Below, one piece after another: positions 7,537-34,184 of a DNA stretch of 64,000 bases (the first letter of the stretch is position 1; every line of letters begins with the position of its first letter). The notes under the pieces were generated by a model that was given only the letters and a program-made list of their open reading frames with translations, ran no database searches and had not been told where the DNA came from. Position numbers and translations under genes: made by a program. The stretch comes from Alphaproteobacteria bacterium (GTDB lineage Bacteria > Pseudomonadota > Alphaproteobacteria > Micropepsales > Micropepsaceae): the NCBI GenBank assembly GCA_003139615.1, contig PLJH01000032.1:111728-175727 (forward strand). The letters are read 5' to 3'.

Positions 7537-7547
7537 GTCCCCACACC

Positions 7548-9481: not shown

Positions 9482-9540
9482 GGTTCGTCTCCGTAGATCG
9501 TTCGCCCTCCCCGGAAGGAAGGGGTGATGATGATGCAATA

Positions 9541-9742
9541 CCCCTCCCCGAATTGCTGCGCAATTCGACGCGGCCTCGTGATATTCCAAACAATCTCGCC
9601 CACCCTCCCCTTGCGGGAGGGTCGATATCATCTTTGAGCGACAGCGAAAAGAGGATTTCGGGGAGGGGAAAATCGCCGATAGCCGTGTGCTTGCCCCTCC
9701 CCGAATTGCTGCGCAATTCGACCCTCCCGCAAGGGGAGGGTG
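9541..9742. repeat. cluster of palindromic repeats (partial, inverted and full copies)
   Basis: Positions 9541-9569 repeat the left half of the 49-bp unit. Positions 9601-9624 carry its right half inverted (CACCCTCCCC, then GGGAGGGTCG). Positions 9694-9742 are a full copy identical to 5690-5738. A GAGCGACAGCGAAA segment at about 9637 resembles, in inverted form, the start of the window. The 9694-9742 unit abuts the stop of modC and could serve as its terminator. Confidence 0.8.
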
Positions 9743-9753
9743 AGAATGTTCGT

Positions 9754-10833: not shown

Positions 10834-11516
10834 CGGCCCACCAGCGCACGCGTGCGCCGCTCCGCGAATTCCGCCAGCACCATTCCGGCAAACGCAAGCG
10901 AGATGGAGAGCAGGGAAAGCCTGGCCGCTTCCGCTTCGCCGCCGGGAGACTGGATCGCGCTGTAGATCGCCAGCGGCAGGGTCTGCGTCTCGCCTGGGAT
11001 GTTGGACACGAATGTGATGATCGCGCCGAATTCGCCCAGGCTCGCGGCAAAGGCCGTGATGGCGCCGGTGACGATGCCGGGCAATGCGAGCGGCAACAGG
11101 ATATTGAAAAAGCGATCGAACGGACCCGCGCCCAGCGTCTCCGCCGCCTGACCGAGCCCGCCGTCGATCGCCGCAAGCGATAGCCTGATGGCGCGCAATT
11201 GGAACGGAAAGGTGATGAGACCGGACGCGAGTGCTGCGCCCGTCCAGCTGAACGCAAACCGGATTCCCAGATTGTGGAGCAACCAGGCGCCCAGGGGTGC
11301 TCGCGTACCGAGAAGTGTCAGCAACAGATACCCGACGACGACAGGCGGCAGGACCAGCGGAATGTGCAGCGCACTATCGACGAGCGTCCTGCCGGGAAAC
11401 CGGCCGCGGGACAGGAGCATGGCTGCGGCAAGTGCAAAAGGCAGCGCGCAGGCCACAGCGACCAGCGACACACGCAGGCTCAACATGAACGCCTGGGCTT
11501 CCACATCCGTCAGCAT
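10830..11516 (-). CDS. modB: molybdate ABC transporter permease ModB
   Basis: This is the inner-membrane channel subunit of the molybdate importer. The 228-residue protein has five or six hydrophobic helices and the permease EAA-type loop (AAETLGAGPFDRFFNILLPLALPG, about residues 145-170) that contacts the ATPase. It also has the LGEFGAI segment typical of ModB and CysT/W permeases. The ATG at 11516 matches the usual ModB N-terminus; an open extension to 11591 is unlikely. It overlaps modC by four bases. The gene upstream of it is divergent and unrelated, so modA is absent locally. Confidence 0.9.
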   Translation of the reverse strand: MLTDVEAQAFMLSLRVSLVAVACALPFALAAAMLLSRGRFPGRTLVDSALHIPLVLPPVVVGYLLLTLLGTRAPLGAWLLHNLGIRFAFSWTGAALASGLITFPFQLRAIRLSLAAIDGGLGQAAETLGAGPFDRFFNILLPLALPGIVTGAITAFAASLGEFGAIITFVSNIPGETQTLPLAIYSAIQSPGGEAEAARLSLLSISLAFAGMVLAEFAERRTRALVGR

Positions 11517-11665
11517 CGCCGCGCCACTCTGAATTCCCTCTTCGCCCCGGCCAATACAACGGAATATCACGAACCGCGCGGGACCCCACACCGGTTAACC
11601 AAGGGTAGCTTGACCGCCCGGCCCGGCCGGTTACGGTTGCAGCGGGGTGGGCATTCGAGGTTGGA

Positions 11666-13417: not shown

Positions 13418-13439
13418 ATCGCGGACCTTCGAAACGGAA

Positions 13440-13464
13440 AAGCCGCCGGGCGAACCGGCGGCTT
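13440..13464 (-). terminator. hairpin terminator of the tonB operon (bidirectional shape)
   Basis: A 10-bp perfect stem, AAGCCGCCGG/CCGGCGGCTT, with a 5-base loop sits between the convergent 583-aa gene and the TPR gene. On the minus strand it is followed by TTTTCC, so it best terminates the tonB-exbB-exbD-exbD-TPR transcript. Confidence 0.8.
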
Positions 13465-13490
13465 CCACATCGTGATTTGAAACTCGCCCC

Positions 13491-14630
13491 TCAGTGCGTG
13501 CGCGCGTAAATCGACCACAGATGCGAGAGAAGCACGTCGCCCGGCTTGGCGCCGCCCGACACCGCACTGAGCGCGTGCACGGCCGCATCCCTCTGGTGCA
13601 GGCCGATATCGGCCATGGCAAGGCGAATCTGCGCGAGATTGCTGTTCGTGACGCCCTTGGCGATGCCGGCCTTCGCGGCGTTTTGCGCATCCTGAAAGCG
13701 GCCCATACCCCAATATTGCGCGCTCAGTTTGATATCCGCGTCGCCGGTTTTGGCGGCGTTGGCGGCCGCTGCTTCCTGGGCGAGGCCTGCAGCTTCGGAC
13801 CCTGCCTGCGATTTGGCCATCGTCATCAGGCGAACCGTGCGGGCGTCGTTCAACAGCTTTGCGTCCATGCCTTTTTGCACGATGCCCTGCGCTTCGGTCG
13901 GGCAACCGATCTGAATCGCGACTTCCGCGGCCGTCGTGTAGTCGTCGGCATTGCGCATCGTGTTGGTGAGAAGGCGCAGACGATAAACGTCCATCGTATT
14001 GTCCGGCGAAAGACCCGCCGAGCGGTCGGCCATGGCCAGAATGTCCGACCAATATTTCGGCTGGTTGTAATTGATGATCAGCTGTTCCGCCGCGATGCGC
14101 ATGGCGTCGTTATCGCCGGATTTATAGGCGGCGCTCATCAACAATTCGAGCGGCCCCTGCCCATGCATATCGCGCAGCATCCGAATGGCCGAAGGGTAGT
14201 CCTGCATTTGATAGTAAGCCTGAGCCACGATCAGTTCGCTCTCGCCGTCATATTGCCCCGCTTTGCGAAGTTCGTCGGCGTCTTCGCCGACGACGTCCCG
14301 AAAGCGGCCGGCGTTATAATCGTTCGCGAACTTCGCCTTGGAGCCCGTCGCTCCACTGCCGTTCTTGGCAGCGATATATGATTTCGTTTGTTCGATCGCC
14401 TGCTGGTCGCCGGAGGTGAGGCCGCCGACAGATTCGGCCTCCCTCACTTTTTCGCCGGCCCCGCTGGTATTGCCGGAACCGGCAAGCCTGATTGCTTCCT
14501 GCAGAAGCTTTCCGACAGCCGGACGCGCGGACGCTTCAGCCGGAACTGCTGCCGGAAGGGAACCGACGGCGGCAATCGCAGACCCGAGGAAAAGCGCCGT
14601 TGCGAAAGCGCGGAGATTAAAGGAAATCAT
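13491..14630 (-). CDS. secreted TPR-like repeat protein of the TonB operon
   Basis: The 379-residue protein has an N-terminal signal peptide (about residues 1-32) and alpha-helical repeat segments with TPR-like spacing (for example AQAYYQMQDYPSAIRMLRD, and YWGMGRFQDAQNAAKAG near the C-terminus). It is the last gene of the tonB-exbB-exbD-exbD cluster and ends at the strong hairpin at 13440. A periplasmic scaffold or accessory role for TonB-dependent transport is suggested only by its position. I know of no defined biochemical function. Confidence 0.7.
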   Translation of the reverse strand: MISFNLRAFATALFLGSAIAAVGSLPAAVPAEASARPAVGKLLQEAIRLAGSGNTSGAGEKVREAESVGGLTSGDQQAIEQTKSYIAAKNGSGATGSKAKFANDYNAGRFRDVVGEDADELRKAGQYDGESELIVAQAYYQMQDYPSAIRMLRDMHGQGPLELLMSAAYKSGDNDAMRIAAEQLIINYNQPKYWSDILAMADRSAGLSPDNTMDVYRLRLLTNTMRNADDYTTAAEVAIQIGCPTEAQGIVQKGMDAKLLNDARTVRLMTMAKSQAGSEAAGLAQEAAAANAAKTGDADIKLSAQYWGMGRFQDAQNAAKAGIAKGVTNSNLAQIRLAMADIGLHQRDAAVHALSAVSGGAKPGDVLLSHLWSIYARTH

Positions 14631-14710
14631 CTTGAGACCTCTCTTGAATTCAAGGCGCGGGTCTCGGACGCATGCGACCGCATGTTCCGCTTCCGCGGTC
14701 GCCCCTCTCG

Positions 14711-15136
14711 TTACTGCATATATTGATCGATGCCGACGAACCCGATCTTCGTCACACCGAGACGCTGCGCATCGGACAGCACCTTCGCCACCGTATCGTA
14801 TTTCGCGAGACGGTTCGGATTGAGATGGATTTCGTCCTGGTCGTCGCCTTTGGCGGCTTCCTGCTGGAGATAAATGTCCAAGGTCGGCATGTCGACCGCA
14901 GTACCGTTCCAGGTGATGGTGCCGTCGAAATCCACTCCCAGCGCCACAACGACGGGAGGAGTGGCAGGCGGCTTCTGGTTGGGCGGCGGCATGTCGAGCT
15001 TCACCGCATGGGTTTGGATCGGCAGAGTGATAATCAGCATGACCAGAAGCACGAGCATGACGTCGATCAACGGCGTCGTGTTCATCTCCACCATGACTTC
15101 GTTTTCGCCGCTTCCGGAACCAAGATTCATTGCCAT
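14711..15136 (-). CDS. exbD: ExbD/TolR family protein (second copy)
   Basis: This is a proton-channel partner of ExbB that helps convert the proton motive force to TonB movement. The 141 residues have a short cytoplasmic N-terminus, one membrane helix (IDVMLVLLVMLIITLPI, about 24-40) with the conserved Asp (D25) in the helix start, and a periplasmic domain. It follows the first ExbD by 31 bases. Its periplasmic sequence is clearly different from that copy, so the two are not a recent duplication. Confidence 0.87.
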   Translation of the reverse strand: MAMNLGSGSGENEVMVEMNTTPLIDVMLVLLVMLIITLPIQTHAVKLDMPPPNQKPPATPPVVVALGVDFDGTITWNGTAVDMPTLDIYLQQEAAKGDDQDEIHLNPNRLAKYDTVAKVLSDAQRLGVTKIGFVGIDQYMQ

Positions 15137-15167
15137 TGCAGGTTACCTTTTGCTTTCCGGCGTCGTG

Positions 15168-15614
15168 CTACTGGGACTCGTTGTTTCGCGGTTCGGTCAG
15201 GAAGCCGACTTTCGGGACGCCGGCTTCCTGGGCCGCCAGAATGACTCTTCCGATGGCCTCGAAGCGCACGTCCTTGTCGCCGCGGATATGCACTTCGGGA
15301 AGCGGCGTGCCCCGCGCCAGCGCGGCCTTAAGGGCGTCTCCAAACCGTCCTCTGAGCTCGCTCGGCTCAACGGGGGCATTGTTCCAGTAGACGTTTTCGT
15401 CCTTGTCGACCGCAATGACGATGTTCTCGGGCTTGGTGATCGTCGGGATATTGTGCGCGTTCGGCAGTTGAAGCGGAACCGTCTTGACGATCACGGGAAT
15501 GGTGATCAGGAAGATGATGAGGAGAACGAGCATCACGTCCACGAGCGGCGTCGTGTTGATCGTGGTGTTCAGTTCCACCTCATCGTGGTCCGCAGACTGG
15601 ACATTCATTGACAT
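15168..15614 (-). CDS. exbD: ExbD/TolR family protein (first copy)
   Basis: The 148-residue protein has the ExbD pattern: N-terminal NTTINTTPLVDVMLVLL with the essential membrane Asp (about D27), one transmembrane helix, and a periplasmic domain containing the DKxV-type motif (VAVDKDENVYWN). It works with ExbB and TonB in the inner membrane. It lies 37 bases after exbB in the same operon. Two distinct exbD genes in tandem are known from some other TonB clusters. Confidence 0.88.
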   Translation of the reverse strand: MSMNVQSADHDEVELNTTINTTPLVDVMLVLLIIFLITIPVIVKTVPLQLPNAHNIPTITKPENIVIAVDKDENVYWNNAPVEPSELRGRFGDALKAALARGTPLPEVHIRGDKDVRFEAIGRVILAAQEAGVPKVGFLTEPRNNESQ

Positions 15615-15651
15615 GTGCTGAGTCCTTGCCGAGCGCGCGCTGCGACTTCAA

Positions 15652-16545
15652 TCACTTCTTGTTGGTCACGAGATAGGTCTGAAGATCGGCCGCGAAGCTG
15701 CGAAGCTTCTCGTTGATGACCTTGTTGCGGCGAACGACGTAGTTGTAGAGCAACACGGCCGGAACGGCGACGAGAAGGCCGAGCGCGGTCGCGATCAGCG
15801 CGGTGCCCACCGGGCCCGCAACCTTGTCGATCGACGCCTGGCCCGCGATGCCGATGGCGATCAGCGCGTTCAGGATGCCCCAGACGGTGCCGAACAGACC
15901 GATAAACGGCGAGGTCGAACCGACCGACGCGAGGAACGCGATACCGGTCTGCATCTGGGCGTTCGCCTCGTCGAGCTGACGGTTCAGCGACATCCCGATC
16001 CAATCATTGAGATTGACGAGACCCGTTCCTTGCCCGGCTGCCGCGCGTACACCGCTTTCCGCGACGCTGCGGAACACGCTGGATTTGGGCAGCTTGTCGA
16101 TGCCTTCATTGAGATTGTTCGAACTCCAGAAACGGCGTTCGACGGTCTTGGCCTGACCAAGCACACGTGCCTGTTCAAGATATTTCGTGATGAAGATGTA
16201 CCACGTTCCGGCCGACATGATGCCAAGCAGCACGATCACGGCCCGAATGACGAAGTCGCCGTTCTTCCACAAGGGAACGAGGCCGTAGGGGCTCTCTTTC
16301 GGAGCAGCCGGTGCGGCAGCCGGTTCTGTAACGGCCGGCGCGGGGGCCGGTGCTGCTGAAGGACCGGACATCGAGGCACCGGGTGCAGCCGGCGCGCCGG
16401 CTGCCGGAGCACCTGCTGCGGGCGTTGCTCCGCTCGGCGCGGCCATGGCGGGTTGAGCCGGTGGTGTTTGTGCAAGTGCCTGGCCGACGCTTGCGGCGGA
16501 CAGGAAAACGATCGCGGCTGCAATCGCCAGATGCTTCGAGATCAT
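15652..16545 (-). CDS. exbB: ExbB proton channel protein (MotA/TolQ/ExbB family)
   Basis: The 297-residue protein is of the long ExbB type. It has an N-terminal signal peptide (about 1-25) and a periplasmic Ala/Pro-rich linker (about 26-85), followed by the first membrane helix (about 97-118). Helices two and three (about 180-245) contain the signature STSPFIGLFGTVWGI and the AGPVGTALIATALGLLVAVPAVL segment. It forms the pentameric channel that houses ExbD. It is placed second in tonB-exbB-exbD-exbD-TPR. The linker is compositionally biased but continuous with the frame. Confidence 0.9.
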   Translation of the reverse strand: MISKHLAIAAAIVFLSAASVGQALAQTPPAQPAMAAPSGATPAAGAPAAGAPAAPGASMSGPSAAPAPAPAVTEPAAAPAAPKESPYGLVPLWKNGDFVIRAVIVLLGIMSAGTWYIFITKYLEQARVLGQAKTVERRFWSSNNLNEGIDKLPKSSVFRSVAESGVRAAAGQGTGLVNLNDWIGMSLNRQLDEANAQMQTGIAFLASVGSTSPFIGLFGTVWGILNALIAIGIAGQASIDKVAGPVGTALIATALGLLVAVPAVLLYNYVVRRNKVINEKLRSFAADLQTYLVTNKK

Positions 16546-16596
16546 TGTTTCGATTCTCCGTAAGTAGATTTAAAAATTAGGCTTCCCCTTCGCGAA

Positions 16597-17235
16597 TCAC
16601 TGCCCCGTTAAGCGGAAGGGAACGCTTGCTTTCCAAGGCACTTCAATCGGTTCACCATTTTGTACTGCCGGCTTGTAGTGCCAACTCCCTGCACAGTTGA
16701 CCGCAGCTTGATCCAACGATTCGTGGCCGCTCGATTCCGCCACCGAAATATCCGTCACAGAACCGTCGGTCATAATTTTGAATGCAAGCACGACCGTCCC
16801 TTCTTGGCCCAGACGGATCGCGATCGCAGGATAGGCGTGCTGGCACTCGTGCGCCTTTCCGATCGAAGCCGGCGCCGTAATGCCGGCAGGTTTCGCCACC
16901 GGCGGCGGCGTCGCCACAACCGATTGGGTTGTGATCGTATTGGTGACCGGCGCGTCAGACTGAATGGTGATGTCCGGCGGCGGCACGAATGGCGGCGGCG
17001 GCTTGACCATGTCCGGCGGCGGCGGCGGCGGCAGCTTCACCACGGGCGGCGGCGCCTCTTCGACCTTCGCCATCAATTCCGACGGAAGCTTCTGCATCAT
17101 CTGCTGAGCGAGACCGGTGATCAAAGCCCAGATAACGATAACGTGGATCGCGACGACGACGACAACGCCCAGAGCGCGCCTGGGTGACGCCTGAACGGCC
17201 GACGACCGAACGAGAGTGTGTAGGGGCTGTTCCAT
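16597..17235 (-). CDS. tonB: TonB energy transducer
   Basis: The 212-residue protein carries an N-terminal membrane helix (about 22-44), a Pro-rich periplasmic spacer (about 60-105 with PPPPPPDMVKPPPP) and a C-terminal TonB domain (about 120-212) with the conserved YPAIAIRLGQEG, then GSVTDISV. It links the ExbBD motor to outer-membrane receptors such as the BtuB-type receptor at 18095 and the receptor at 35560. It is the first gene of its operon. The next 530 bases upstream contain no gene and should hold its promoter. Confidence 0.9.
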   Translation of the reverse strand: MEQPLHTLVRSSAVQASPRRALGVVVVVAIHVIVIWALITGLAQQMMQKLPSELMAKVEEAPPPVVKLPPPPPPDMVKPPPPFVPPPDITIQSDAPVTNTITTQSVVATPPPVAKPAGITAPASIGKAHECQHAYPAIAIRLGQEGTVVLAFKIMTDGSVTDISVAESSGHESLDQAAVNCAGSWHYKPAVQNGEPIEVPWKASVPFRLTGQ

Positions 17236-17775
17236 GGCTTCAGATTAACCGGACAAAGTTGGACCGGGCACTAATGCTCCGGCCATAATGATGGCTGAAC
17301 AGGTTCACGCGTCCCCTCCCCGGCACCGCGGTAGCGGCGCGCGTCTGCGGCCCCTCTTTCCGTATATCGTAATCATCGTTCTGCGCACGGTCCAGCTTTT
17401 CGATTGGTAAACGGCCGGAACGCGAAAAGGTGGCTTTGTCGCAGTCGGGGGTGATGGCATCATGCGATCCGGCACAGAGCGGTTCCAATCGGCAGAAGCT
17501 TGATTCGACACTGCAAACGGCAAGCAGCGACAGGACTTGGCGCCGGGCCGACACGCATCGCAAAAAGCTCGTAAAGGCTTCATTTCCAAGCACCTACAGG
17601 GTTGCGGCGAATCGGCCCACCCGGGATTCTCAACAACTTATCAGCGTGCCCTCGCGGCCTGGCGCAATCATGAGCGCGCCTATGTCGCGAATGCCCCGAC
17701 GGACATATTTCAACAGTGACGGTCGGCAGAGTGTACGAATGTTGACCCCCACTGCGTCCATCCATTAGCGTTCAA
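17236..17775. other. intergenic region between tonB and the cobalamin riboswitch
   Basis: No gene is visible on either strand; the open frames are short and have no family resemblance or ribosome binding site. It should contain the divergent promoters for the tonB operon and the riboswitch-btuB transcript. I could not identify convincing -35/-10 pairs by eye. Confidence 0.5.
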
Positions 17776-21999: not shown

Positions 22000-22188
22000 A
22001 TGTCCGCAAGCCTCGCGCCGGGACAATGGGTGCGCCTGACTGCGGCGCCGGAATGGGGCCTCGGTCAAGTACAATCGGTGGCAGGCGTTCGCGTGACCGT
22101 CAATTTCGAACATGCCGGCAAACGGCTCATTCAGGCCGATGTCGCAAAGCTGGAAACCGTCGATCCGGCCCCGGAGAACACCCGATGA
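22000..22188 (+). CDS. DUF3553 small protein
   Basis: The 62-residue protein looks like a single small beta-barrel with the DUF3553 pattern (PGQWVRLTAAPEWGLGQVQS, then VTVNFEHAGKR). Such SH3/KOW-like domains are also found at the end of UvrD/PcrA-type helicases, where they contact other proteins. A stand-alone form has no known role. Its stop overlaps the start of cysQ (ATGA at 22185). The CtrA-type box ends one base before its start codon. Confidence 0.75.
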   Translation: MSASLAPGQWVRLTAAPEWGLGQVQSVAGVRVTVNFEHAGKRLIQADVAKLETVDPAPENTR

Positions 22189-22991
22189 CTGCCAAACCGT
22201 CTCATGGCCTCACTGCGCTGGCAGGCATCGCCTGGCAGGCAGGCGAAATCATCCTCGGACATTATGCCGATGACGCCATCCAGGCGCGCCGCAAGGCCGA
22301 TCAATCGCCGGTCACCGCGGCGGACGAAGATGCCGAAGCGTACATTCTTGCGCAGCTTTCAAAGCTCGCGCCCGGCGTGCCCGCGATTGCCGAAGAGGAG
22401 ACTGCGGCGGGTCGCGTGCAGCAAATCTCGGATCATTTTTTCCTCGTCGATCCGCTCGACGGAACAAAAGAGTTTCTGAACCGCAACGGCGAATTCACCG
22501 TCAATATCGCGGAAATCAAGGGCGGCGTACCGGTGCGGGGCGTGGTGTTCGCGCCCGCGAAGGAGCGCCTGTTCATGGGCGAGCTCGAGACCGGCGCCTA
22601 TGAACTCGGCACGAAGCCGGGCGTGGCGCCGGATTTCTCGCAGGCGCGCGCGATCAAGGCGTGCAAACCCGGCGCCGATGGATTGATCGCTGTGGCAAGC
22701 CGTTCGCATCGCGATGCCAAGACCGAGGAATATCTCGCGGCCTATCCGGTGAAGGATTTCGTCGCGGCCGGCTCGTCGCTCAAATTTTGCCTGGTCGCTG
22801 CCGGTGAAGCCGATATCTATCCGCGCCATGGCCGCACGATGGAATGGGATACGGCAGCGGGTCACGCGGTGCTTGCAGCTGCGGGCGGCAGCGTGACGAC
22901 GATCGACGGCAAGCCTTTTGTCTACGGCAAAGCCGACGAAAAATTCGCCAATCCCTATTTTGTGGCGCGGGGCCTGGACGAAAAAAACTGA
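22185..22991 (+). CDS. cysQ: 3'(2'),5'-bisphosphate nucleotidase CysQ
   Basis: This enzyme dephosphorylates 3'-phosphoadenosine 5'-phosphate, the by-product of sulfate assimilation. The 268-residue protein has the inositol-monophosphatase-family metal sites: EE at about 70-71, DPLDGTKEF at 89-97 and the C-terminal WDTAAGHAVL. The PLDGTKEF form is typical of CysQ as opposed to inositol phosphatases. The start at 22185 overlaps the DUF3553 stop. An open frame from 22026 is out of register with the DUF3553 gene and is not the true start. Confidence 0.88.
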   Translation: MTAKPSHGLTALAGIAWQAGEIILGHYADDAIQARRKADQSPVTAADEDAEAYILAQLSKLAPGVPAIAEEETAAGRVQQISDHFFLVDPLDGTKEFLNRNGEFTVNIAEIKGGVPVRGVVFAPAKERLFMGELETGAYELGTKPGVAPDFSQARAIKACKPGADGLIAVASRSHRDAKTEEYLAAYPVKDFVAAGSSLKFCLVAAGEADIYPRHGRTMEWDTAAGHAVLAAAGGSVTTIDGKPFVYGKADEKFANPYFVARGLDEKN

Positions 22992-23999: not shown

Positions 24000-24803
24000 T
24001 TACCCCGCGAGCAATGTCATCGCTTCGGCATGCAGACGAGCATCGCCGGCGGCGAGCACTTGCCCGCCTGCCGAGCAATCTCCACCCTGCCAGTTCGTGA
24101 TGACGCCGCCCGCGCCTTCCACGACGGGGATGAGCGCCGCGACATCCCAACGATGGAATGTCGTCTCTACGATCAGATCGACAAAACCGAGAGCCAACGC
24201 GCCGAATATGTAACAATCGCCGCCCCACCGGGTCATGCGAACGGCGCGCTCCACGCGACGAAACGCGGGGCGCTCGCCTTCGCCATAGAACGCGTCGGGA
24301 TGCGTCGCACAGAGAATCGCATCCGCCATTTGCGTGCCGGTGCGGGTACGCAACGGCGTAACTGCACCGCCCGAGTGCAGTTCGGCGCGCCCATTGGCGC
24401 CGACAAATCGCTCTCCGAGAACGGGTTGGTCGATAATGCCCAGGATCGGTCGACTGTCTTTTTCCAGGGCGATCAAGCAGCCCCATTCGTGACGCCCGGC
24501 AATGAAGGTGCGCGTGCCGTCGACGGGATCGAGCACCCAGCGCAGTCCGTTCGTGCCCTTCTTTTCGCCGTGCTCCTCGCCCAGAATTCCGTCCTCGGGA
24601 CGTTCCCGGTCGATGATGGCGCGGATGGCGGTCTCCGCATTCTTGTCCGCCTCGGTGACGGGATCGAATACCGGCTTGCCGTCATGGATGGGGCGTTTGT
24701 CCGCCACATCGATACGCTGACGGAAATAAGGGCGTATGACCGCGCCGGCCGCGTCGGCGAGGCGATTTGCGAACGCGATTGTGGCGGAATCGACCTCGGT
24801 CAT
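24000..24803 (-). CDS. hisN: inositol-monophosphatase-family phosphatase, likely histidinol-phosphatase (HisN type)
   Basis: The 267-residue protein has the IMPase metal motifs GEE (75-77), DPVDGTRTF (92-100) and the C-terminal RWDVAALIPVVEGAGG. The combination with FDPVTEADKNAE and AGRHEWGCLIAL is typical of the HisN-type histidinol-phosphatases of actinobacteria and alphaproteobacteria, which perform the penultimate step of histidine synthesis. A role on another sugar or inositol phosphate cannot be excluded. The ATG at 24803 follows GGGAGA. Longer open frames overlap the divergent SDR gene and are rejected. Confidence 0.8.
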   Translation of the reverse strand: MTEVDSATIAFANRLADAAGAVIRPYFRQRIDVADKRPIHDGKPVFDPVTEADKNAETAIRAIIDRERPEDGILGEEHGEKKGTNGLRWVLDPVDGTRTFIAGRHEWGCLIALEKDSRPILGIIDQPVLGERFVGANGRAELHSGGAVTPLRTRTGTQMADAILCATHPDAFYGEGERPAFRRVERAVRMTRWGGDCYIFGALALGFVDLIVETTFHRWDVAALIPVVEGAGGVITNWQGGDCSAGGQVLAAGDARLHAEAMTLLAG

Positions 24804-24860
24804 GCTCGGTTCTCCCGTAAGGCGCGCTATATTGCATAGAGAGCGCCAGGAGGGCAGTCC

Positions 24861-25712
24861 ATGAAAAGTGTCGTCGTGACGGGGGCATCCACGGGCATCG
24901 GCTGGGGCTGCGCCAAGGTCCTGATCGGAAGAGGATTCCGCGTTTTCGGCAGCGTCCGCAAGCAAGCCGATGCGGACCGGCTTGCGAAGGAATTCGGAGC
25001 GAATTTCGTGCCGGTGATGTTCGATGTGACCGATTCGGCTGCCGTGAAAGCCGGCGCGGAGAAGGTTGCGGCTGCGCTTGCCGGCGAGCCGCTCTTCGGC
25101 CTCGTCAACAATGCGGGCATCGCGGTGCCGGGCCCGCTGCTCCATCTCGACATCGACGAATTCCGTCACCAGCTCGAGGTGAACGTCACAGGTCAGCTCA
25201 TCGTCACGCAAGCTTTCGCGCCATTGCTGATGGCGCAGCCCGCGCACAAAGCGGGGCCCGGACGGATCGTGATGATCTCCTCGGTGGGCGGCAAAAACGC
25301 TTCACCCTTTGTCGGCGCTTACAATGCGTCGAAATTCGCGCTCGAAGGGCTATCGGAAAGCCTGCGCCGGGAACTGATGCTGTTCGGCATCGACGTGATC
25401 GTCGTAGCGCCCGGCGCGGTCGCGACCCCCATCTGGGACAAGGCCGAAACGATCGATGTCGCGCGCTACGCCAACACGCCTTTCGCGGCGGCTCTCACGA
25501 AAGTGCGCGATTACATGATCGCGAGCGGACGCAAGGGCCTGAAACCCGAAAAACTCGGACGCGCCGTCTGGCGCGCACTGACGATCGCAAATCCGAAAAC
25601 GCGTTACACGGTGACGCCGGATCGCATGCAGAATTTCATGGTCAACGTTCTACCCAAGCGCGTGATCGATCGCACGATTGCAGGCCGATTGGGGCTGACG
25701 CGCCGGCAATAG
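24861..25712 (+). CDS. short-chain dehydrogenase/reductase (SDR) family oxidoreductase
   Basis: The 283-residue protein has the classical SDR pattern: TGASTGIG (7-14) for the nucleotide, NNAG (about 90-93), a catalytic Ser in MISSVGG, and YNASKFALE (about 154-162), where Tyr and Lys complete the active site. Residues after the first strand (SVRKQAD) suggest NADP preference. Substrate cannot be told from sequence. The start at 24861 is preceded by GGAGGG. It is divergent from the hisN-type gene. Confidence 0.88.
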   Translation: MKSVVVTGASTGIGWGCAKVLIGRGFRVFGSVRKQADADRLAKEFGANFVPVMFDVTDSAAVKAGAEKVAAALAGEPLFGLVNNAGIAVPGPLLHLDIDEFRHQLEVNVTGQLIVTQAFAPLLMAQPAHKAGPGRIVMISSVGGKNASPFVGAYNASKFALEGLSESLRRELMLFGIDVIVVAPGAVATPIWDKAETIDVARYANTPFAAALTKVRDYMIASGRKGLKPEKLGRAVWRALTIANPKTRYTVTPDRMQNFMVNVLPKRVIDRTIAGRLGLTRRQ

Positions 25713-25752
25713 CCGCGACCGGATCGCGAAATTTCACGCGTCTTGTCGGACC

Positions 25753-28700
25753 TTAGTTTCCCGTAGTCGTGCCGTGCTCGGAAACAAGATCTTCCGAGCC
25801 ATAGGAATTTCCGTTGTCCATCGTGATATTCCCATACGCGGTCACGTTCAGGGCGCCCGGCGTCGTGATCGAGCCTGAGATCTGATCCACGATGTTCGTG
25901 TCGGATATCAGCGTGACATCGGCGCCCGACACATTGCCGGTCAGTCGCAAGGCGCCGGAGGTGAGGGTGATATCCGTGTCGCCCTGATCGCCGGAGACGG
26001 CACCTTGCACCGTCAGGTGCGTTCCGTCGACAAGCGTAAATCCGCCCAATCCTGTATTGGCGAATGCGCCCACATGCGTGATCAGATTTGTGCCGTTCAG
26101 GCTCGCGCCTCCGACGGAACTGCCTGCGAGCAACCTGGCGGCGATTCCGCCGCCGATCTCCGTGATCGTTCCAGCGGAATTGAGGTCGACTTGATTGCCC
26201 GCCGTCAATTGGCTTGCGACGTCGATGCCGCCGCTTGTCGTCGTCAAGATGACGTTGCCGGTCACGGTGCTCACCGCGCCGGAGACCGTGAGCGCTTCTC
26301 CGTCCATAAGCGAGAAACTGTTTGCGCCTGTATTGGTGAACGCGTCCAGCGTGCCGATCATGTTGGCACCGTTGAACACGACGCCGTTAACCGAGCTGCC
26401 TGTCAGCGACGCGGCCGAGATCGATCCGATCGAAGTCTCGATGAGATTGCCGGTCGAGTTGAGCGTGACCCCGCCGGTTCCGGCATTCACCGCGCCGTCA
26501 ATGCGCAACGGCCCGACGTTGTTCACATCGAGATTGCCGGAGCCGCCTGTGTCGACGCCGCTCAGAAGCGCGATGTTATTGGTGCCCGTGAGCAAGATAT
26601 CGCCGCTGGAACCCAGCGCCAGCGCGTAGGCGTCGATCGTGCCGGTCGACTCGCTTATCGAGCCCGCGGCATCGAGCGTCACATGGTCGCCGGTGAAATT
26701 GAGCACGGCGTCGATGTCGAGCGCAGCCGCCGTGTCGTCGATGGCGACATTGATACCCGATGAGACCCCGCCTGCGGCCGTATAGAGGAATTGCGATCCT
26801 GTCTGCGAGCCCAGCGCGGTATCGAGGCCGGCGATCGTGCCGCTCGCGGTCGCCTGGTCGCTCGTGATTTCGAGCGTGCGCTCCTGGAGGCCGAGGTCGG
26901 ACAGCGAACCCGTTGCGTCCAGATAATAGGAATTGGCTTCGGTGGGCGCGCCGCTTGCAACGTAGGCGAGCACCTGGCTGCCGGAGCCCGAAATGGTTCC
27001 GGGAGCGAGCAGCATGTAATAATAGCCGTCGGCGCCCGAACTCATCGACACGAGCGGATCGGCTGTCGTGCCGTCGACCAGCAATCCGACGCCGGCGCCC
27101 GAAACCACTTTCGCACCGTTGCCGACTACGCCGGACACGACTTGCGGCGTGCCATTGGGCGACTGCCATTGCAGATAGGGATAGCTTATGCCCGCAACGA
27201 TGCCCCACACGCTCGGATCCCAACTCGGATCGAGCGCGCTTTGCAAGGTGGCCGTCGTAGCGCCCGTGATGCCGGCATCGCCGGAGACGTTGCCCGCGCC
27301 CTGCTCCGGGTTCGTGATTCCGCTCGTCTGCATGTCCCAATAGCTGGTCTGTATGGTGCCGCCGTCGTCGCCGACGAACCCGCCGACCTCGGCGCCGGCG
27401 CCCGCTTTCACCGTGCCGACTGAATAGGACTCTTCGATCGTGCTACCGTTATAACCGACAAGGCCGCCGGCCGCCGTTTCGCCCCCGCCGCCCTTCACCG
27501 CGCCCACGGCATAGGTTTGATCGATGTCCCCGTCGTTGGCGCCGACAAGGCCACCGAGAACGTCTGAATGGCTGCCGGTTACCGCGCCCGTGGCGAAGGA
27601 CTGGGATATGTCGCCGGGGTTATAGCCGACAAGTCCGCCGGCGGCAGCGTAAGCGCCGTCGACCTGCACCGCGCCGGTGGCATAAGATTCGTCAATTTCA
27701 AATTCGTTGATGCCGACAAGGCCGCCGACCGCGCTACCGCGGCCGCCGGTCACGGCGCCGGTTGCATAAGATTCGTCAATTTCATTTTCACTCATGCCGG
27801 CGAGACCGCCGATCGCGTTTCCGGCGCCGCCTATCACAGTGCCGGTGGCATAGGATTGCTCGACAAGACCCTCATTGGCGCCGACCAGACCTCCAATGAC
27901 GGTTTCAATACCACCACCGCTGCCACTTACGGCGCCGCCGGCAAATGATTGAATAATCTCACCGACGTTTTCGCCAACGAGGCCGCCGAGAGCGGTGACG
28001 GAGTTGTCGCTCACGGCGCCGGCGGCAGACGATTGGAAGATGACGCCCTCGTTGAAACCGACCAGGCCTCCGACAGGGGCTTCGAAGCCGCCATATACCG
28101 TCGCGGAAGACGTAGACAGCGAAATCTCGCCCTCACTGGCGCCCACCAAACCGCCGACTGCCGCATCGACGCCGCCGGTCACCGTTCCCGTGGCATAAGC
28201 ATTGTTCACGGTGCCATCGACTTCACCTGCGAGCGCGCCGACCGCAGCGCCTTCGCCGAATGTCGATACGATATCGGCGTTGGTCACGCCCAAATCCTGC
28301 ACTGTCCCGTCGATCTCGCCGAACAGGCCGACACTGTCATCCCGACTGTCGTTTATCGTCAGCCCGCTGATCGTATTGTTGAACCCTTCGAACGCACCTT
28401 CGAAATCAAAGATCGGAGATTCCCTGTATGTCGTGCCGGCCAAATCGATGTCGTTTGCGAGCGCGTAGAATCCTTCCGGGTTGTCGTTAAGGTCGCGCAG
28501 CAACTCGGCGGCGTTGTCGATCAATGTGAAAGACGTGCCGTTGACCGCGAACGCATAGCGCGTATCGGCGAACGTCACCGTCGCACCGTTGCCCAGAGAG
28601 TAGCCGTACTCATTCACGTCGTTCGGATTGAGCGTGAACACGCTGGAAGCGCCTGACGCCGCGCCGGTGAAGGCGATGTTCGCGTTGATCTCGATGTTCT

Positions 28701-30234
28701 GCGGCGCGAGCGTCGGATCATTGGGATCGCCCAGCACAAGACCGCCTCCGCCGCCGATGGTGATCGGCGCGTTGATGGAAATCGTATCCGATGCGCCCAG
28801 ACTCAGAACGGTCGGCGCGGACCATGACAGCGGAACCAGCACGGTGATGTCGCTGGTAATCGATCCGCTACCTTCCGGGGACCCGGAACCACCGGCAGAA
28901 CCGGCGCAAAATCCGCAAGGTCCGGTTCCGCGCGCGTTGCCGGTGGTATCGCCATGCGCGGCAATGGCCACATTCGTCGTGGCGAGCGCAGCTACCAGAT
29001 CATCGACATTGATATTGGAATCCCCATCGGCCGTAGTAAAAGTATAACCGCCGGTCGACGGAGCGTTCGAAATCGTCACGGTGTAAGGATCGATCAGCCA
29101 GCTGCCGGTCTTGCCGAACGCGGCCAGGGTGTCGACCCTTACGCCCGCGAGCCCGACGACGTCGCCAGATGTCTCGACCAAGCCGCCGTTGCCGGAACGG
29201 GAGCCGCCTTGCGCATAAACATGCGCCCCGAATTGATTGATTGAAGCGATGGCCGAGATATGTCCGCCATTGCCGCTCGTACCGGCGGATGCTTCCACAA
29301 CGCTCGCGTTGTCGGCGACGATGCCGGCCTGATTCCAGCCACCGATGGTGACCGAGCCCCCGCCATTGGCGCCGGAAGCGTCCAGTGTCGCCTTTATAAG
29401 AGCGATGCTGCCGCCATCGCCCGCATCGAGCACGATGGTGCCGCCGACCTGCTGGGCCGTCTGCGCCTGGATAAGGCCGCCCGCATTGACCACGCCCGTC
29501 GCAAGACCTTCGGCTGCACGGGCGGTCATTGTAACGGTCGCACCCGTGAGTCTGCCTGTGTTGGTCGCGGTGGCTTTGCCGTTCACGTCACCTTGCGCAG
29601 CGAACGAGACGAGACCATCGCCGCTGAAATCGACTGTGAAGGCGTTCGATGCGCCCAGGGCAACCGTGCCGAGCTTCGCCTGGACAATACCGGCATTCGT
29701 GACGTTCGGCGCCACGAGTGCGACCGTGCCGCCGCTTGCCGCAGTGATCGACCCTTTGTTGACGACGGATGCATTCTGATTGCCCGCCTTGGAGAACTTG
29801 CCGGCAAGCAAATCGGAATCCGTGCCGTCGGTGCTGGTCGCGATCAGCGAGCCGACATTGACCTGCGCGCCCTTGCCGAACAGCATTCCGTTGCCGTTGA
29901 TCAGGACCACACGGCCATTCGCGTCGAGCGTTCCCATGATCTGGCTGGCGCTCGCACCACCGATGCGGTTGACGGCGATCGCCGAAGAATTGGGCTGAAC
30001 GAATTGCGTGGTCTGGCCGCTGGCGACATTGAAGCTCGACCAGTCGATCACGACGTCTTCGCTCTTCTGGTCGACCGTCGTGGTCTTGGCCGAGGGCGCG
30101 CCGATGGTCGCCGACCCGGTCGTCACGGCGCCACCTGCTGGATTGGCATAGGCCGGCCCGAGCAGCGCTGGAGACGCCAGCGCAAGCACCAGAAAGGCAG
30201 CGCCAGACTTCAATTCGCAGCGAAATGATTGCAT
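25753..30234 (-). CDS. large two-partner-secretion (filamentous haemagglutinin-like) adhesin with GLUG repeats
   Basis: The 1493-residue protein starts with a signal peptide (to about residue 30) followed by a TPS secretion domain (about 31-160: TTTVDQKSEDVVIDWSSFNV and the INGNGMLFG motif). A beta-helical region follows. About a dozen repeats of roughly 28 residues lie at about 634-960, each with a GGLVGxN-like GLUG motif and a QSYATGAV-like turn. The rest is more beta-repeat sequence. Such proteins are exported through a TpsB (FhaC-type) pore and act in adhesion. No TpsB gene is in the window. The protein ends in a low-complexity, non-domain tail close to the SDR gene, so the C-terminus could be truncated. 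Confidence 0.8.
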   Translation of the reverse strand: MQSFRCELKSGAAFLVLALASPALLGPAYANPAGGAVTTGSATIGAPSAKTTTVDQKSEDVVIDWSSFNVASGQTTQFVQPNSSAIAVNRIGGASASQIMGTLDANGRVVLINGNGMLFGKGAQVNVGSLIATSTDGTDSDLLAGKFSKAGNQNASVVNKGSITAASGGTVALVAPNVTNAGIVQAKLGTVALGASNAFTVDFSGDGLVSFAAQGDVNGKATATNTGRLTGATVTMTARAAEGLATGVVNAGGLIQAQTAQQVGGTIVLDAGDGGSIALIKATLDASGANGGGSVTIGGWNQAGIVADNASVVEASAGTSGNGGHISAIASINQFGAHVYAQGGSRSGNGGLVETSGDVVGLAGVRVDTLAAFGKTGSWLIDPYTVTISNAPSTGGYTFTTADGDSNINVDDLVAALATTNVAIAAHGDTTGNARGTGPCGFCAGSAGGSGSPEGSGSITSDITVLVPLSWSAPTVLSLGASDTISINAPITIGGGGGLVLGDPNDPTLAPQNIEINANIAFTGAASGASSVFTLNPNDVNEYGYSLGNGATVTFADTRYAFAVNGTSFTLIDNAAELLRDLNDNPEGFYALANDIDLAGTTYRESPIFDFEGAFEGFNNTISGLTINDSRDDSVGLFGEIDGTVQDLGVTNADIVSTFGEGAAVGALAGEVDGTVNNAYATGTVTGGVDAAVGGLVGASEGEISLSTSSATVYGGFEAPVGGLVGFNEGVIFQSSAAGAVSDNSVTALGGLVGENVGEIIQSFAGGAVSGSGGGIETVIGGLVGANEGLVEQSYATGTVIGGAGNAIGGLAGMSENEIDESYATGAVTGGRGSAVGGLVGINEFEIDESYATGAVQVDGAYAAAGGLVGYNPGDISQSFATGAVTGSHSDVLGGLVGANDGDIDQTYAVGAVKGGGGETAAGGLVGYNGSTIEESYSVGTVKAGAGAEVGGFVGDDGGTIQTSYWDMQTSGITNPEQGAGNVSGDAGITGATTATLQSALDPSWDPSVWGIVAGISYPYLQWQSPNGTPQVVSGVVGNGAKVVSGAGVGLLVDGTTADPLVSMSSGADGYYYMLLAPGTISGSGSQVLAYVASGAPTEANSYYLDATGSLSDLGLQERTLEITSDQATASGTIAGLDTALGSQTGSQFLYTAAGGVSSGINVAIDDTAAALDIDAVLNFTGDHVTLDAAGSISESTGTIDAYALALGSSGDILLTGTNNIALLSGVDTGGSGNLDVNNVGPLRIDGAVNAGTGGVTLNSTGNLIETSIGSISAASLTGSSVNGVVFNGANMIGTLDAFTNTGANSFSLMDGEALTVSGAVSTVTGNVILTTTSGGIDVASQLTAGNQVDLNSAGTITEIGGGIAARLLAGSSVGGASLNGTNLITHVGAFANTGLGGFTLVDGTHLTVQGAVSGDQGDTDITLTSGALRLTGNVSGADVTLISDTNIVDQISGSITTPGALNVTAYGNITMDNGNSYGSEDLVSEHGTTTGN

Positions 30235-30326
30235 GTCGATCCCCCCAGGGCCGGCCGAGGCTCGACCGGCACCGTCAAGTTACACTATGGATTAATCTGC
30301 GACCAGCAGGTGTTTGTGGCGTCCCG

Positions 30327-31835
30327 ATGACATTGATCGATCAGGCCATTGCCGCGAGACGGCAACGCCGTTTCCAAGAGGCGGAAAAAACTTGCCGCGC
30401 CGCCATCTTGGAGCAGCCGGACAATGTCCCCGCCCTGAACCTCCTGGGTGTGCTTCTGCTCGAAACGGGGCGGGCGGGCGAGGCTGAAGACGTCATCCGG
30501 AAATCCCTCGAAATCGATCCCGACTCGCCTGCCGCACTGCACAATCTCGGTCTTGCGCTCGGTGCGACCGGCCGGCCCGATCAGGCGCTGCATTATTTTG
30601 CGCGCGCCATCGCCGGGCAATCGGATTTCGTCGATGCCTATTACAATCTGGGCCTCGCATTGCAATCCTGCGGAAGAGTCGAAGAGGCCGCAGCGGTCTA
30701 TGACCGAGCGATTCAATTGAAACCCGATCACGCTCACGCGCTCAACAATCTTGCGCTTATCCATCATGGAGAGGCGCGGTTGGCGGAAGCGGTTGCGCTC
30801 TATCGCCGTGCGCTCGCGGCCGACCCAGACATCGAGACCACGCGGGCCAATCTGGGTAGCGCACTCCTGATTCTCGGCGAACGCGAAGACGCCTTAGCGA
30901 TATTTCGCGAGGCGCTGGCGCGCAATCCGCACGATCCGCTCTCCAACTATGTTCTGGCGCAAGTCGACTACCAAGCAATGGACATCGACAAGAGCACAGA
31001 GAAGCTCGTCGCAACTTTGGAAGAATTGCGGGAACGTTCCGATTGGTTGCGGCACGGTTCGACGTCCTCCTCCCAAATTCCGATATACGACATTCCGCGC
31101 TATCGCGAGGCGCTGTGCGCAGTCGTAGACGCCTTGAACGCCGCGGGAATTGAGGCATGCCTTTTCGGGGGCACCTTGTTGGGCGCGACGCGCGACGGCG
31201 ACTTCATCTCCTTCGACAAGGACATGGACTTCGGCATCTTCGCATCGGTCACTCCGGCGCAACTCGACGCCGTGTTGTCGCGAGACCCGAGATTCCGACG
31301 GCAAACCGAACTCGCCGACGACGTGATCATATCGTGCTACAAATTCGAAGATTGCGTGGCGATCGATTTCTTTCGGCTTTATCCGGAAGGCGAAACAGTC
31401 TGGTGCGGACTATATTGGCGCGGTCAACTGGTGAAATGGCGGCACAAAAGCTTCGCTCTGCGGGATTTTGTTTTTCTCGGTGTGCCGACAAAAATTCCGG
31501 AAGACCCGGAATTTTTTCTGTCGGAAGTCTATGGCGACTGGCGAACGCCCAATCCCTATTTCGCGGCGTGGGCATCGCCGAATATGGACGGCGGATTTCC
31601 GCCCGTGGCGCGTTGCATTGCTTATGCAAACATTTTCAAGGCGGCGTGGAGCGGCGACCGGCCGCGTGCGATCGATCTTTGCCGACAGCTATTGGCGCTG
31701 GATCCGGGCAATACACTCGTTGCGGATATCAGACTTCGCCTGCTCGCGGCTCAGGAGCGCGTCCCGTCCGGACCCTCAGCGACGCAAGGTGCCTTCCTGG
31801 GCTCGCTTGAGGACGCGTTCGACAATCTGACGTGA
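30327..31835 (+). CDS. TPR protein fused to a LicD/fukutin-type phosphotransferase domain
   Basis: The N-terminal half (about 1-230 of 502 residues) consists of about six TPR units (NLLGVLLLETGRAGEAEDVI, YYNLGLALQSCGRVEEAAAVYDRAI and others). The C-terminal half carries a LicD/fukutin motif (about 279-305): FGGTLLGATRDGDFIS followed by DKDMDFGI, where the Asp residues bind metal and the phospho-donor. LicD proteins transfer phosphocholine or similar groups from CDP-activated donors to surface glycans. This TPR-LicD fusion is the notable part. The ATG at 30327 begins the TPR region; the open frame to 30225 is not needed. It is divergent from the adhesin and convergent, with a 60-bp overlap, with the cytidylyltransferase. 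Confidence 0.75.
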   Translation: MTLIDQAIAARRQRRFQEAEKTCRAAILEQPDNVPALNLLGVLLLETGRAGEAEDVIRKSLEIDPDSPAALHNLGLALGATGRPDQALHYFARAIAGQSDFVDAYYNLGLALQSCGRVEEAAAVYDRAIQLKPDHAHALNNLALIHHGEARLAEAVALYRRALAADPDIETTRANLGSALLILGEREDALAIFREALARNPHDPLSNYVLAQVDYQAMDIDKSTEKLVATLEELRERSDWLRHGSTSSSQIPIYDIPRYREALCAVVDALNAAGIEACLFGGTLLGATRDGDFISFDKDMDFGIFASVTPAQLDAVLSRDPRFRRQTELADDVIISCYKFEDCVAIDFFRLYPEGETVWCGLYWRGQLVKWRHKSFALRDFVFLGVPTKIPEDPEFFLSEVYGDWRTPNPYFAAWASPNMDGGFPPVARCIAYANIFKAAWSGDRPRAIDLCRQLLALDPGNTLVADIRLRLLAAQERVPSGPSATQGAFLGSLEDAFDNLT

Positions 31836-32225
31836 GGAAATGTGCGATGTGTAGCGAACCGTCCTCAGGCGGCCGTGCTCCATGAGGTCCGCATAAAACT
31901 TCCGGAGTTCCGCCTCCGCCATGTCGTCTCCATGGCACAGGAATTCCGCGCCGATCGAATCGAGAAACGCACATTTGGGCGTTAGCGGCACGGGCTGCTC
32001 CACCACACGATCGACAAAACGGCAGGCGCGCACGACACCAAGCCTCTCGGCAAAGGTCAGGATAGGCAAAGGTTTGTAGGTGCCGACATCGGCGTCACCG
32101 ACCAGGCCCACGATCAGGCGATCGCCCAGCGCGCGCGCCTGTCGGAAGAACTCGACATGACCGACATGAAACAGATCGCACACCGCGTCGGCGTAAACCC
32201 AGCGCAATGCAGGCGTATCGCTCAT
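31776..32225 (-). CDS. cytidylyltransferase-family nucleotidyltransferase
   Basis: The 149-residue protein has the HxGH motif (H20-V-G-H23) and the second signature ISSRQI (129-134), in the place of the ISTSDI-like motif of cytidylyltransferases that make CDP-glycerol, CDP-choline or CDP-ethanolamine. The strand YADAVCDLFHVGHVEFFRQ resembles the eukaryotic-type choline/ethanolamine-phosphate enzymes. I infer it activates a phospho-alcohol with CTP, which could be the donor for the LicD domain encoded convergently. The 3' ends overlap by 60 bases, an unusual arrangement. Substrate is unproven. Confidence 0.75.
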   Translation of the reverse strand: MSDTPALRWVYADAVCDLFHVGHVEFFRQARALGDRLIVGLVGDADVGTYKPLPILTFAERLGVVRACRFVDRVVEQPVPLTPKCAFLDSIGAEFLCHGDDMAEAELRKFYADLMEHGRLRTVRYTSHISSRQIVERVLKRAQEGTLRR

Positions 32226-32345
32226 CGGGTGTTCTCCGCAGTCGGCGCGTCTGAATGACGGCCGATAGCGCAGACAGGCTGCGACAGGTCCGGCATTGAG
32301 GCAAGACCGGTAGGCGCCGCCTGATTCCGGCGATGCCGTTCAGGA

Positions 32346-34184
32346 TTAAGCTTCGACTTTTGCGCGTTTGCGCATGTGCGGCAGGAGTTCGCGCTTGCGC
32401 AGGCGGATCGATTGCGGCGTCACTTCGACCAATTCGTCGTCTTCGATATAGGCGATGGACTGCTCAAGCGTCAGCGGCACGATCGGCGTCAGCCGGAGCG
32501 CCTCGTCCTTTGCGTGCGTGCGGATGTTGGTGAGCTGCTTTGCCTTCAGCGGATTGACGTCGAGATCGTTGTCGCGCGAATGCTGCCCGATGATCATGCC
32601 CTGATAGACCTTCGTCCCCGGTATCACGAACAGCTTGCCGCGGTCTTCCAGAAAGAACAGTCCATAGGTCACGGCCTCGCCGTCGGCCGTCGAAATCAGC
32701 ACACCGCTGGTGCGACCCACGAGCGCGCCCTTGAAAGGCGCGTAGCCGTGAAACATGCGGTTGATCACGCCCGTGCCCCGCGTATCGGTGAGGAATTCGC
32801 CGTGATAGCCGATCAATCCGCGTGACGGCGCAAAGAACACGAGCCTCGTCTTGCCCGCGCCGGTCGGACGCATGTCCTGCAACTCGCCTTTGCGCTGACT
32901 GACCTTGTCGATGACGATGCCCGTATAGGGATCGTCGACGTCGATGGTCACTTCCTCGATCGGCTCGAGCTTCTCGCCCAGCTCGGGATCGGTACGGAAC
33001 AGAACGCGGGGTCGGCTGATCGAAAGTTCGAAACCTTCGCGACGCATCTGCTCGATGAGCACGCCCAATTGCAGTTCGCCACGGCCGGCGACTTCGTAGG
33101 AGCCTTCTCCCGTTTCGCTCACATGGATTGCGACATTGCCTTCGGCCTCGCGCAGCAGCCTTTCGCGGATCACGCGGCTCTGGACCTTTTCGCCTTCGCG
33201 TCCTGCCAGGGGCGAATCGTTGACGGAAATGGTGATGGCGAGCGTGGGCGGATCGATCGGCGTGGCCGTGATGGGTTTTTCGACTTCGACGTCGCACAGC
33301 GTATCGGCCACGGTCGTCGTCTGGAGGCCGGCGATTGCGATGATGTCTCCCGCTTCCGCACGCTCGACCGGCACGCGCGCGAGACCGCGGAATGCCAATA
33401 ACTTGGTCGCCCGTGCCCGCTCGACAATCTCGCCGTCGCTGTTGAGTGCTTTGATCTGGCGATTGACCGTAATGGCGCCGGACTCGATGCGCCCGGTCAG
33501 GATGCGGCCCAGATAAGGATCGGCTTCGAGCGTCGTCACCAGCATCGTGAACGGAAAGCCGTCGCCGGCCTTCGCGAGCGGCCGGGGCTTCGGCACGTCG
33601 GCGACGATGCGGTCGAACAGGGGCGCGAGCGATGTGTGTGGTTCATCGAGATCTGCCACCGCCCAACCCTGCCTGCCTGAAGCATAGAGGACGTGGAAAT
33701 CGAGTTGGTAGTCGTTCGCCTCCAGGGCCAGGAACAGATCGAAGATGCTTTCGAGCGTTTCCTTGGGCTGCGCGTCGGACCGGTCGATCTTGTTGATGAT
33801 GACGATCGGCTTCAGCCCGAGCTTCAAGGCCTTCGACAGCACGAATTTCGTCTGCGGCATGACCGACTCGGCCGCGTCCACCAGCAGGACCACGCCATCG
33901 ACCATCGACAGGATGCGCTCGACCTCACCGCCGAAATCAGCGTGCCCCGGCGTATCGATCAGGTTGAGCTGATAGCGCTCGCCATCGTGGGCCAGGTACT
34001 GCAAGGTGACGCTCTGCGCCTTGATGGTGATGCCGCGCTCGCGCTCCAGATCGTTGGAATCCATCGCCCGGTCCTGGACGTGCTGGTTGTCGCGTATGGC
34101 GCCCGACTGCTTGAGCAGATGGTCGACAAGCGTGGTTTTGCCATGGTCGACATGGGCGATGATGGCAATATTGCGAATATCCAT
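32346..34184 (-). CDS. typA: ribosome-associated GTPase TypA/BipA
   Basis: The 612-residue translational GTPase has G1 AHVDHGKTT (10-18), G3 DTPGH (about 77-81) and G4 NKIDR (about 131-135), followed by EF-G-like domains II, III and V and the TypA-specific C-terminal domain with [14 protein letters not shown] at the end. It binds the ribosome and is needed under stress and cold in several bacteria. The length matches the family's usual 600-615. The ATG at 34184 is the obvious start. Single-gene unit. Confidence 0.95.

Follow-up and report, generated by a model that had tools for sequence, protein, structure and literature searches.

A TPS adhesin encoded together with a TPR-LicD protein and a cytidylyltransferase: a candidate phospho-alcohol modification system in an alphaproteobacterial genome

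The three genes at the locus

The window analyzed here is a stretch of 64,000 nucleotides (G000:C128:111728-175727) from a 4.6-Mb MAG that is 96.7% complete and whose alphaproteobacterial class was assigned from gene content and relatives. Exactly three genes lie between an SDR gene on the left (24861..25712, plus strand) and the typA/bipA GTPase gene on the right (32346..34184, minus strand): an adhesin, a TPR-LicD protein, and a cytidylyltransferase (CTT). All three open reading frames are complete in the ORF list of the window. An earlier, sequence-only reading of this DNA had described the TPS domain and GLUG repeats of the adhesin, the Asp motif of the LicD domain, the HxGH and ISSRQI motifs of the CTT, and a 60-bp overlap, and we found the frames and every one of these elements where that reading had placed them. 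The G+C content of the three-gene block (0.59-0.63) does not depart from that of its surroundings, and no transposon-end-like repeats were seen around the insert in a DNA repeat search. Further to the left, two genes that resemble inositol monophosphatases by eye (22173-22991 and 24000-24809) enclose an EipA (PF06577) gene.

The adhesin (25753..30234, minus strand; 1493 aa) opens with a signal-peptide-like N-terminus, followed at residues 29-274 (29413..30150, minus strand) by a TPS secretion domain (PF05860, E 2.6e-29, 103.3 bits vs. a cut-off of 33.5). The TIGR01901 model scores 72.8 bits against a cut-off of 29.1. With the N-terminal TPS secretion domain that defines TpsA exoproteins, the protein is predicted to belong to this type. 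Its GLUG repeat block (27280..28155, minus strand; residues 694 to about 985) is supported by a PF07581 match (E 3.4e-20), by repeats in the DNA, and by 10 copies of about 28 aa each that fit the expression GG[LF][VA]G.

Divergent from the adhesin lies the gene of the predicted TPR-LicD transferase (30327..31835, plus strand; 502 aa). The longest open frame begins at 30225 and overlaps the start of the adhesin gene, but conservation is seen only from the ATG at 30327; the earlier ATG is not conserved in the related genome G033, described below, and was rejected as the start. With the start codons set by this conservation, a divergent intergenic region of 92 bp (30235..30326) remains, which likely contains both putative promoters. 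No signal peptide was seen in the protein. Its N-terminal TPR superhelix (residues 1-236; 30327..31034, plus strand) matches many TPR families and is followed by a LicD/FKRP-type nucleotidyltransferase-like domain (about residues 256-412; 31092..31562, plus strand). The PF04991 match spans a short stretch of 33 aa, with 32.3 bits against a cut-off of 22.6, and the best PDB sequence match of the domain is FKRP, both for the single sequence (E 3.7e-7) and for the profile (E 2.6e-8). An alignment of eight relatives shows the GTLLG...R...DxDxD motif to be largely invariant, together with an Asp downstream of it; the residues kept are G-T, G, R, DxDxD, and this Asp. The catalytic Asp motif DKDMD (D297/D299/D301; 31215..31229, plus strand) and the downstream D347 (31365-31367, plus strand) are intact in the window protein and invariant in this alignment. 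Taken together, the family score and the GTLLG-R-DxDxD motif indicate a putative LicD/FKRP phosphotransferase.

An AF2 model of the whole TPR-LicD protein (pLDDT 84) combines a helical TPR superhelix with the LicD domain and ends in a pair of helices. In the structure search, the superhelix resembles the TPR domain of OGT; TPR matches dominate the results for the whole model, and FKRP is not among the matches listed. The TPR similarity appears to be generic, and it does not prove protein binding. No glycosyltransferase family, GT41 included, was found among the matches of the TPR-LicD protein, whose transferase domain is the LicD domain.

Convergent with the TPR-LicD gene is the gene of the CTT (31776..32225, minus strand; 149 aa). 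The two genes overlap by 60 bp (31776..31835), covering most of the codons of the CTT's ISSRQI motif. The protein matches PF01467 (E 2.8e-12) and contains, besides ISSRQI, the nucleotide-binding motif HVGH (32157..32168, minus strand), the His residues of which are invariant. Its nearest sequence is human ethanolamine-phosphate cytidylyltransferase, PCYT2 (E 8.9e-34; profile E 7.3e-54), which also heads the structural matches of the predicted fold (Z 17.7, 139 aligned residues, rmsd 2.6), followed by Plasmodium CCT (Z 17.5), TagD (16.1), and HldC (13.3), with matches within 1 Z counted as tied. The sequence and fold similarities, together with the HxGH motif, point to an ECT/CCT-like enzyme. 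The sequence-only reading was thus right in calling the protein a cytidylyltransferase and needs correction as to its type: it is a single-domain ECT/CCT-like protein of 149 aa, compared with the two tandem catalytic domains of ECT (PCYT2). The C-terminal signature reads YTSHISS rather than the usual RTxGIST(T), with Arg replaced by Tyr, Gly replaced by His, and the IS core retained. Since the signature Arg is absent, the substrate of the CTT may differ from those of ECT/CCT enzymes.

Inheritance of the cassette within the genus

We compared the window genome (G000) with 68 sister genomes, giving 69 genomes of the genus in total. Searching these with a LicD-domain profile recovered a close TPR-LicD from just two of them, the window genome and G033; the weak matches elsewhere in the genus, two in number, are different LicD-family proteins. 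A close CTT was likewise confined to G000 and G033 among 37 genus members, the remaining matches in the genus being distant (E 1e-8 or weaker) and mostly located in long open frames. The order in G033 (locus L022) is TpsA-TpsB, a divergent TPR-LicD, and a convergent CTT, the last two overlapping by 69 bp (12937-13005) vs. 60 bp in the window. The G033 cassette occupies another chromosomal site, with flanks unlike those of the window. Its adhesin matches that of the window best (50-52% identity, 399+228 bits); of the window genome's other TpsA loci, eight were compared and three further ones left out, and the best single match among the eight reaches 257 bits. The full trio is known from two genomes only, of which G033 is 86% complete.

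In three sister genomes (L160, L162, and L159), nothing separates the SDR gene from typA, and in L160 their stop codons overlap. Since the flanking genes adjoin each other in these genomes, the three genes were either acquired here together or lost together in the other genomes. The junction (window 25712-32346; L158, L163, and L164) is empty in some species and carries small inserts of other genes elsewhere; it is a variable insertion site in the genus. The sequence-only reading had treated the three genes as belonging together and had named their conservation as a trio as a check. That check, run here, found a close TPR-LicD in one of the 68 sisters, G033, where it is accompanied by the CTT and the adhesin. 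Given this second trio with the same layout at another locus, the clean three-gene insert, and the near restriction of both enzyme genes to the two genomes with the trio, the conclusion that the adhesin, TPR-LicD, and CTT form one unit, inherited and inserted together, is well supported.

The two cassettes differ in the exporter: a TpsB gene stands beside the adhesin in G033 and is absent from the window cassette. The window genome encodes eleven TPS-domain proteins vs. only two TpsB exporters (PF03865), and therefore one exporter probably serves several adhesins. The TPS-domain proteins are spread over contigs C133, C68, C128, C125, C5, C89, C95, C62, and C75, and the exporters are found on C133 and C135. 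The TpsB on C135 (L094) is the nearest to the G033 TpsB (40% vs. 33% for the other TpsB of the window genome), and its contig has no TPS-domain hit. It is the candidate exporter that would act in trans on the window adhesin.

LicD relatives and their neighbors in other genomes

In other genomes, the gene next to a relative of the LicD domain very often encodes a CDP-alcohol synthase. This synthase is CTT/TagD-like at L077, L081, L083, L085, L087, L088, L092, L038, and other loci, of the IspD type at L076 and L078, and a bifunctional IspD-SDR protein at L079 and L080. In L084 and L089, from two other lineages, LicD and CTT parts are fused in one polypeptide. The N-terminus of the fusion has a weak TPR match in L089 and no Pfam TPR match in L084, where it looks TPR-like by eye. 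Fusions of ISPD with LicD in bacteria have been noted earlier (PMC4873967). Following the Rosetta-stone argument, the LicD-CTT neighborhoods in many genomes and the two fusion proteins support the view that LicD domains like this one receive their donor from a CTT of this type, in agreement with the donor-supplying role proposed for the CTT by the earlier reading.

We then considered which other genes accompany TPR-LicD proteins. At five of seven loci (L084 and L089 counted), a small sample with neighbors picked by eye, an exported surface protein adjoins the TPR-LicD gene. The partner is a TpsA in the window and in G033, a Ser/Gly-repeat protein in L035 (2273-3124, minus strand) with a signal peptide and, by eye, a PEP-CTERM-like tail, and an RTX-repeat protein in L084 (PF00353, E 9e-29). 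The fifth locus, L078/L118 (G530; 7449-17741), encodes on the same strand a TPR-LicD, an IspD-like CTT, and a giant DUF4347/Calx-beta protein, a row that is a candidate for a second set of donor, transferase, and target. No obvious exported partner was seen at L076 and L089.

LicD genes without a recognized TPR present a mixed picture. At two loci, L080 (G654; 7403-13113) and L119 (an Octadecabacter arcticus plasmid; 5831-8690), such a gene and a CDP-alcohol synthase lie directly beside flagellin, and at L079 (G799; 7024-13071) the pair lies near an FlhF-like gene. The synthases at these three loci are of the IspD-SDR (CDP-ribitol) type or of the CTT type. The arrangement suggests phospho-alcohol modification of flagellin at L080, L079, and L119. 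Most other LicD genes without a recognized TPR occur in polysaccharide (capsule, EPS, LPS) or unclear loci; plasmid searches likewise returned mainly polysaccharide loci and the Octadecabacter flagellin locus. A scan of GTDB contigs yielded three loci only, two of which were already among the finds of the genome searches.

Known counterparts and proposed function

The closest known arrangement is the HMW1A/HMW1B/HMW1C system of Haemophilus (EtpA/B/C in ETEC), in which HMW1C, a cytoplasmic third partner of TPS adhesins, glycosylates HMW1 (PMC3983070). There, too, a TpsA gene adjoins the gene of a cytoplasmic enzyme, helical in its N-terminal domain, that is dedicated to modifying the adhesin, just as the modifier gene stands beside tpsA in the window and beside tpsA-tpsB in G033. 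However, HMW1C is a GT41 hexosyltransferase, whereas the window encodes a predicted LicD/FKRP phosphotransferase with a CDP-alcohol synthase and has no TpsB in the cassette. By analogy, the cassette would work like the HMW1 system, with an enzyme that, lacking the GT41 domain by which the HMW1C family is defined, falls outside that family. FlmG of Caulobacter, for which two-hybrid assays probed the interaction of flagellins with the full-length protein, its TPR domain, and its GT domain (PMC7591256), is similarly a cytoplasmic alphaproteobacterial protein that combines TPR and transferase parts and serves an exported protein, but it is a GT-B glycosyltransferase with a flagellin substrate.

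Based on these results, we propose that the cassette encodes a TPS adhesin and a cytoplasmic system dedicated to modifying it with a phospho-alcohol, a reading to which we assign a probability of a little under 60%. We infer the alcohol, the acceptor, and the contact between TPR domain and adhesin as follows. The CTT would activate a small phospho-alcohol, by resemblance one like phosphoethanolamine or phosphocholine, to a CDP-alcohol. The TPR superhelix would grip the adhesin in its unfolded state, or a glycan attached to it, and the LicD/FKRP domain would move the phospho-alcohol from the CDP-alcohol onto the acceptor before Sec export. The adhesin would then be secreted through a TpsB porin, whose gene lies at another locus in the window genome and next to the adhesin gene in G033. 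The best candidate for the acceptor is the adhesin itself, owing to the recurrent exported-protein neighbors and to the precedents of HMW1C and FlmG. The idea of the sequence-only reading that the trio is a joint modification system is thus partly supported. Against it stand the occurrence of the trio in just two genomes, the lack of an obvious exported partner at L076 and L089, the altered signature of the CTT, and the absence of TpsB from the cassette in the window.

In the main rival, the target of the LicD/CTT pair is a surface polysaccharide, LPS, or a glycolipid, and the adhesin is a neighbor that binds the glycan or is held by it. It owes this position to Cps7C, a capsule transition transferase of Actinobacillus pleuropneumoniae that shares the TPR-LicD architecture, namely an N-terminal TPR and a C-terminal FKRP-like nucleotidyltransferase domain, that depends on two Asp residues for activity, and that serves capsule-linker synthesis (PMC11666461). 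The many LicD relatives in capsule, EPS, and LPS loci also fit. Nevertheless, Cps7C acts on a capsule linker, whereas the gene in the window lies outside any capsule locus and is inherited along with an adhesin; the insert is devoid of any glycan gene; and TPR-LicD recurs next to unrelated types of exported proteins. In addition, the window genome, at 96.7% completeness, gave no match to the KpsC/KpsS-type PF05159, for which the E. coli control was positive. We therefore rejected a group 2 capsule setting; the missing match argues against a group 2 capsule acceptor, not against other glycans. All in all, we regard a polysaccharide acceptor as unlikely. Even less probable is that the TPR-LicD acts on a glycan already present on the adhesin, as FKTN/FKRP do on alpha-dystroglycan. 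Among solved proteins, FKRP is indeed the one closest to the LicD domain; it works on a protein-bound glycan, and in that pathway, too, a CDP-alcohol synthase (ISPD) feeds a LicD-domain transferase with its acceptor on a surface protein (PMC4873967). However, a glycosyltransferase encoded elsewhere would have to act first, and none accompanies the cassette in either species; the donor synthase is of the ECT/CCT type, and neither ribitol nor a glycan acceptor has support here.

Two further explanations have far less weight. That the trio consists of chance neighbors at a variable insertion site, without a common function, could appeal to the unrelated inserts that the SDR-typA junction carries in other sister genomes. 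Yet the trio, its orientation, and its overlap are repeated at a second site in G033, and the sister genomes lack the enzyme genes; the second species and the empty sister site led us to reject a chance neighborhood, and the absence of any common function seems very unlikely. Least probable of all is that the CTT is an HldE/HldC-like adenylyltransferase that provides ADP-heptose in a system like autotransporter heptosylation. The best NCBIfam score of the CTT is indeed to TIGR02199 (rfaE_dom_II), but its 59.5 bits fall far under the 181.5-bit cut-off, ECT and CCT outrank HldC in PDB sequence and structure comparisons, and the partner is a LicD instead of a heptosyltransferase. The TIGR02199 score and the PDB matches led us to reject an HldE/ADP-heptose identity.

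Returning to the proposed modification of the adhesin, we searched open-licence full texts for precedents. Phospho-alcohol decoration of the TPS-adhesin class was not found described there, and no paper combined LicD, tetratricopeptide, adhesin, and cytidylyltransferase. LicD co-occurs with two-partner secretion or filamentous hemagglutinin in genome reports, of which a Campylobacter one treats both as separate loci. If the proposal is true, phospho-alcohol transfer joins the known cytoplasmic modifications of secreted adhesins, with donor synthase, transferase, and target encoded together in a small three-gene system; the chemistry can therefore be rebuilt in a laboratory host.

A broader possibility, which we put forward tentatively and at somewhat less than even odds, is that cytoplasmic TPR-LicD proteins, paired with ECT-, TagD-, or IspD-type synthases, form a dispersed bacterial class that tags exported surface proteins directly with phospho-alcohols. 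The targets would include TPS adhesins, RTX, PEP-CTERM, and DUF4347 proteins, and flagellins. Such a class would be the protein-targeted counterpart to teichoic-acid/LOS decoration, and in bacteria it would parallel the action of FKRP on dystroglycan. Flagellins and other exported proteins are repeatedly found next to LicD/CDP-alcohol synthase pairs, which suggests that modifications of this kind may be common and have been overlooked; if this holds, it would link bacterial LicD proteins to the muscular-dystrophy enzymes FKTN and FKRP. A separate arrangement occurs in L038 (G257; 8355-9886), where a small ORF that looks PqqD-like by eye (9086-9418) has a LicD gene on one side and, on the other, an ECT-like CTT that matches the profile of the window CTT at E 1e-25; this is a possible peptide-modification cluster.
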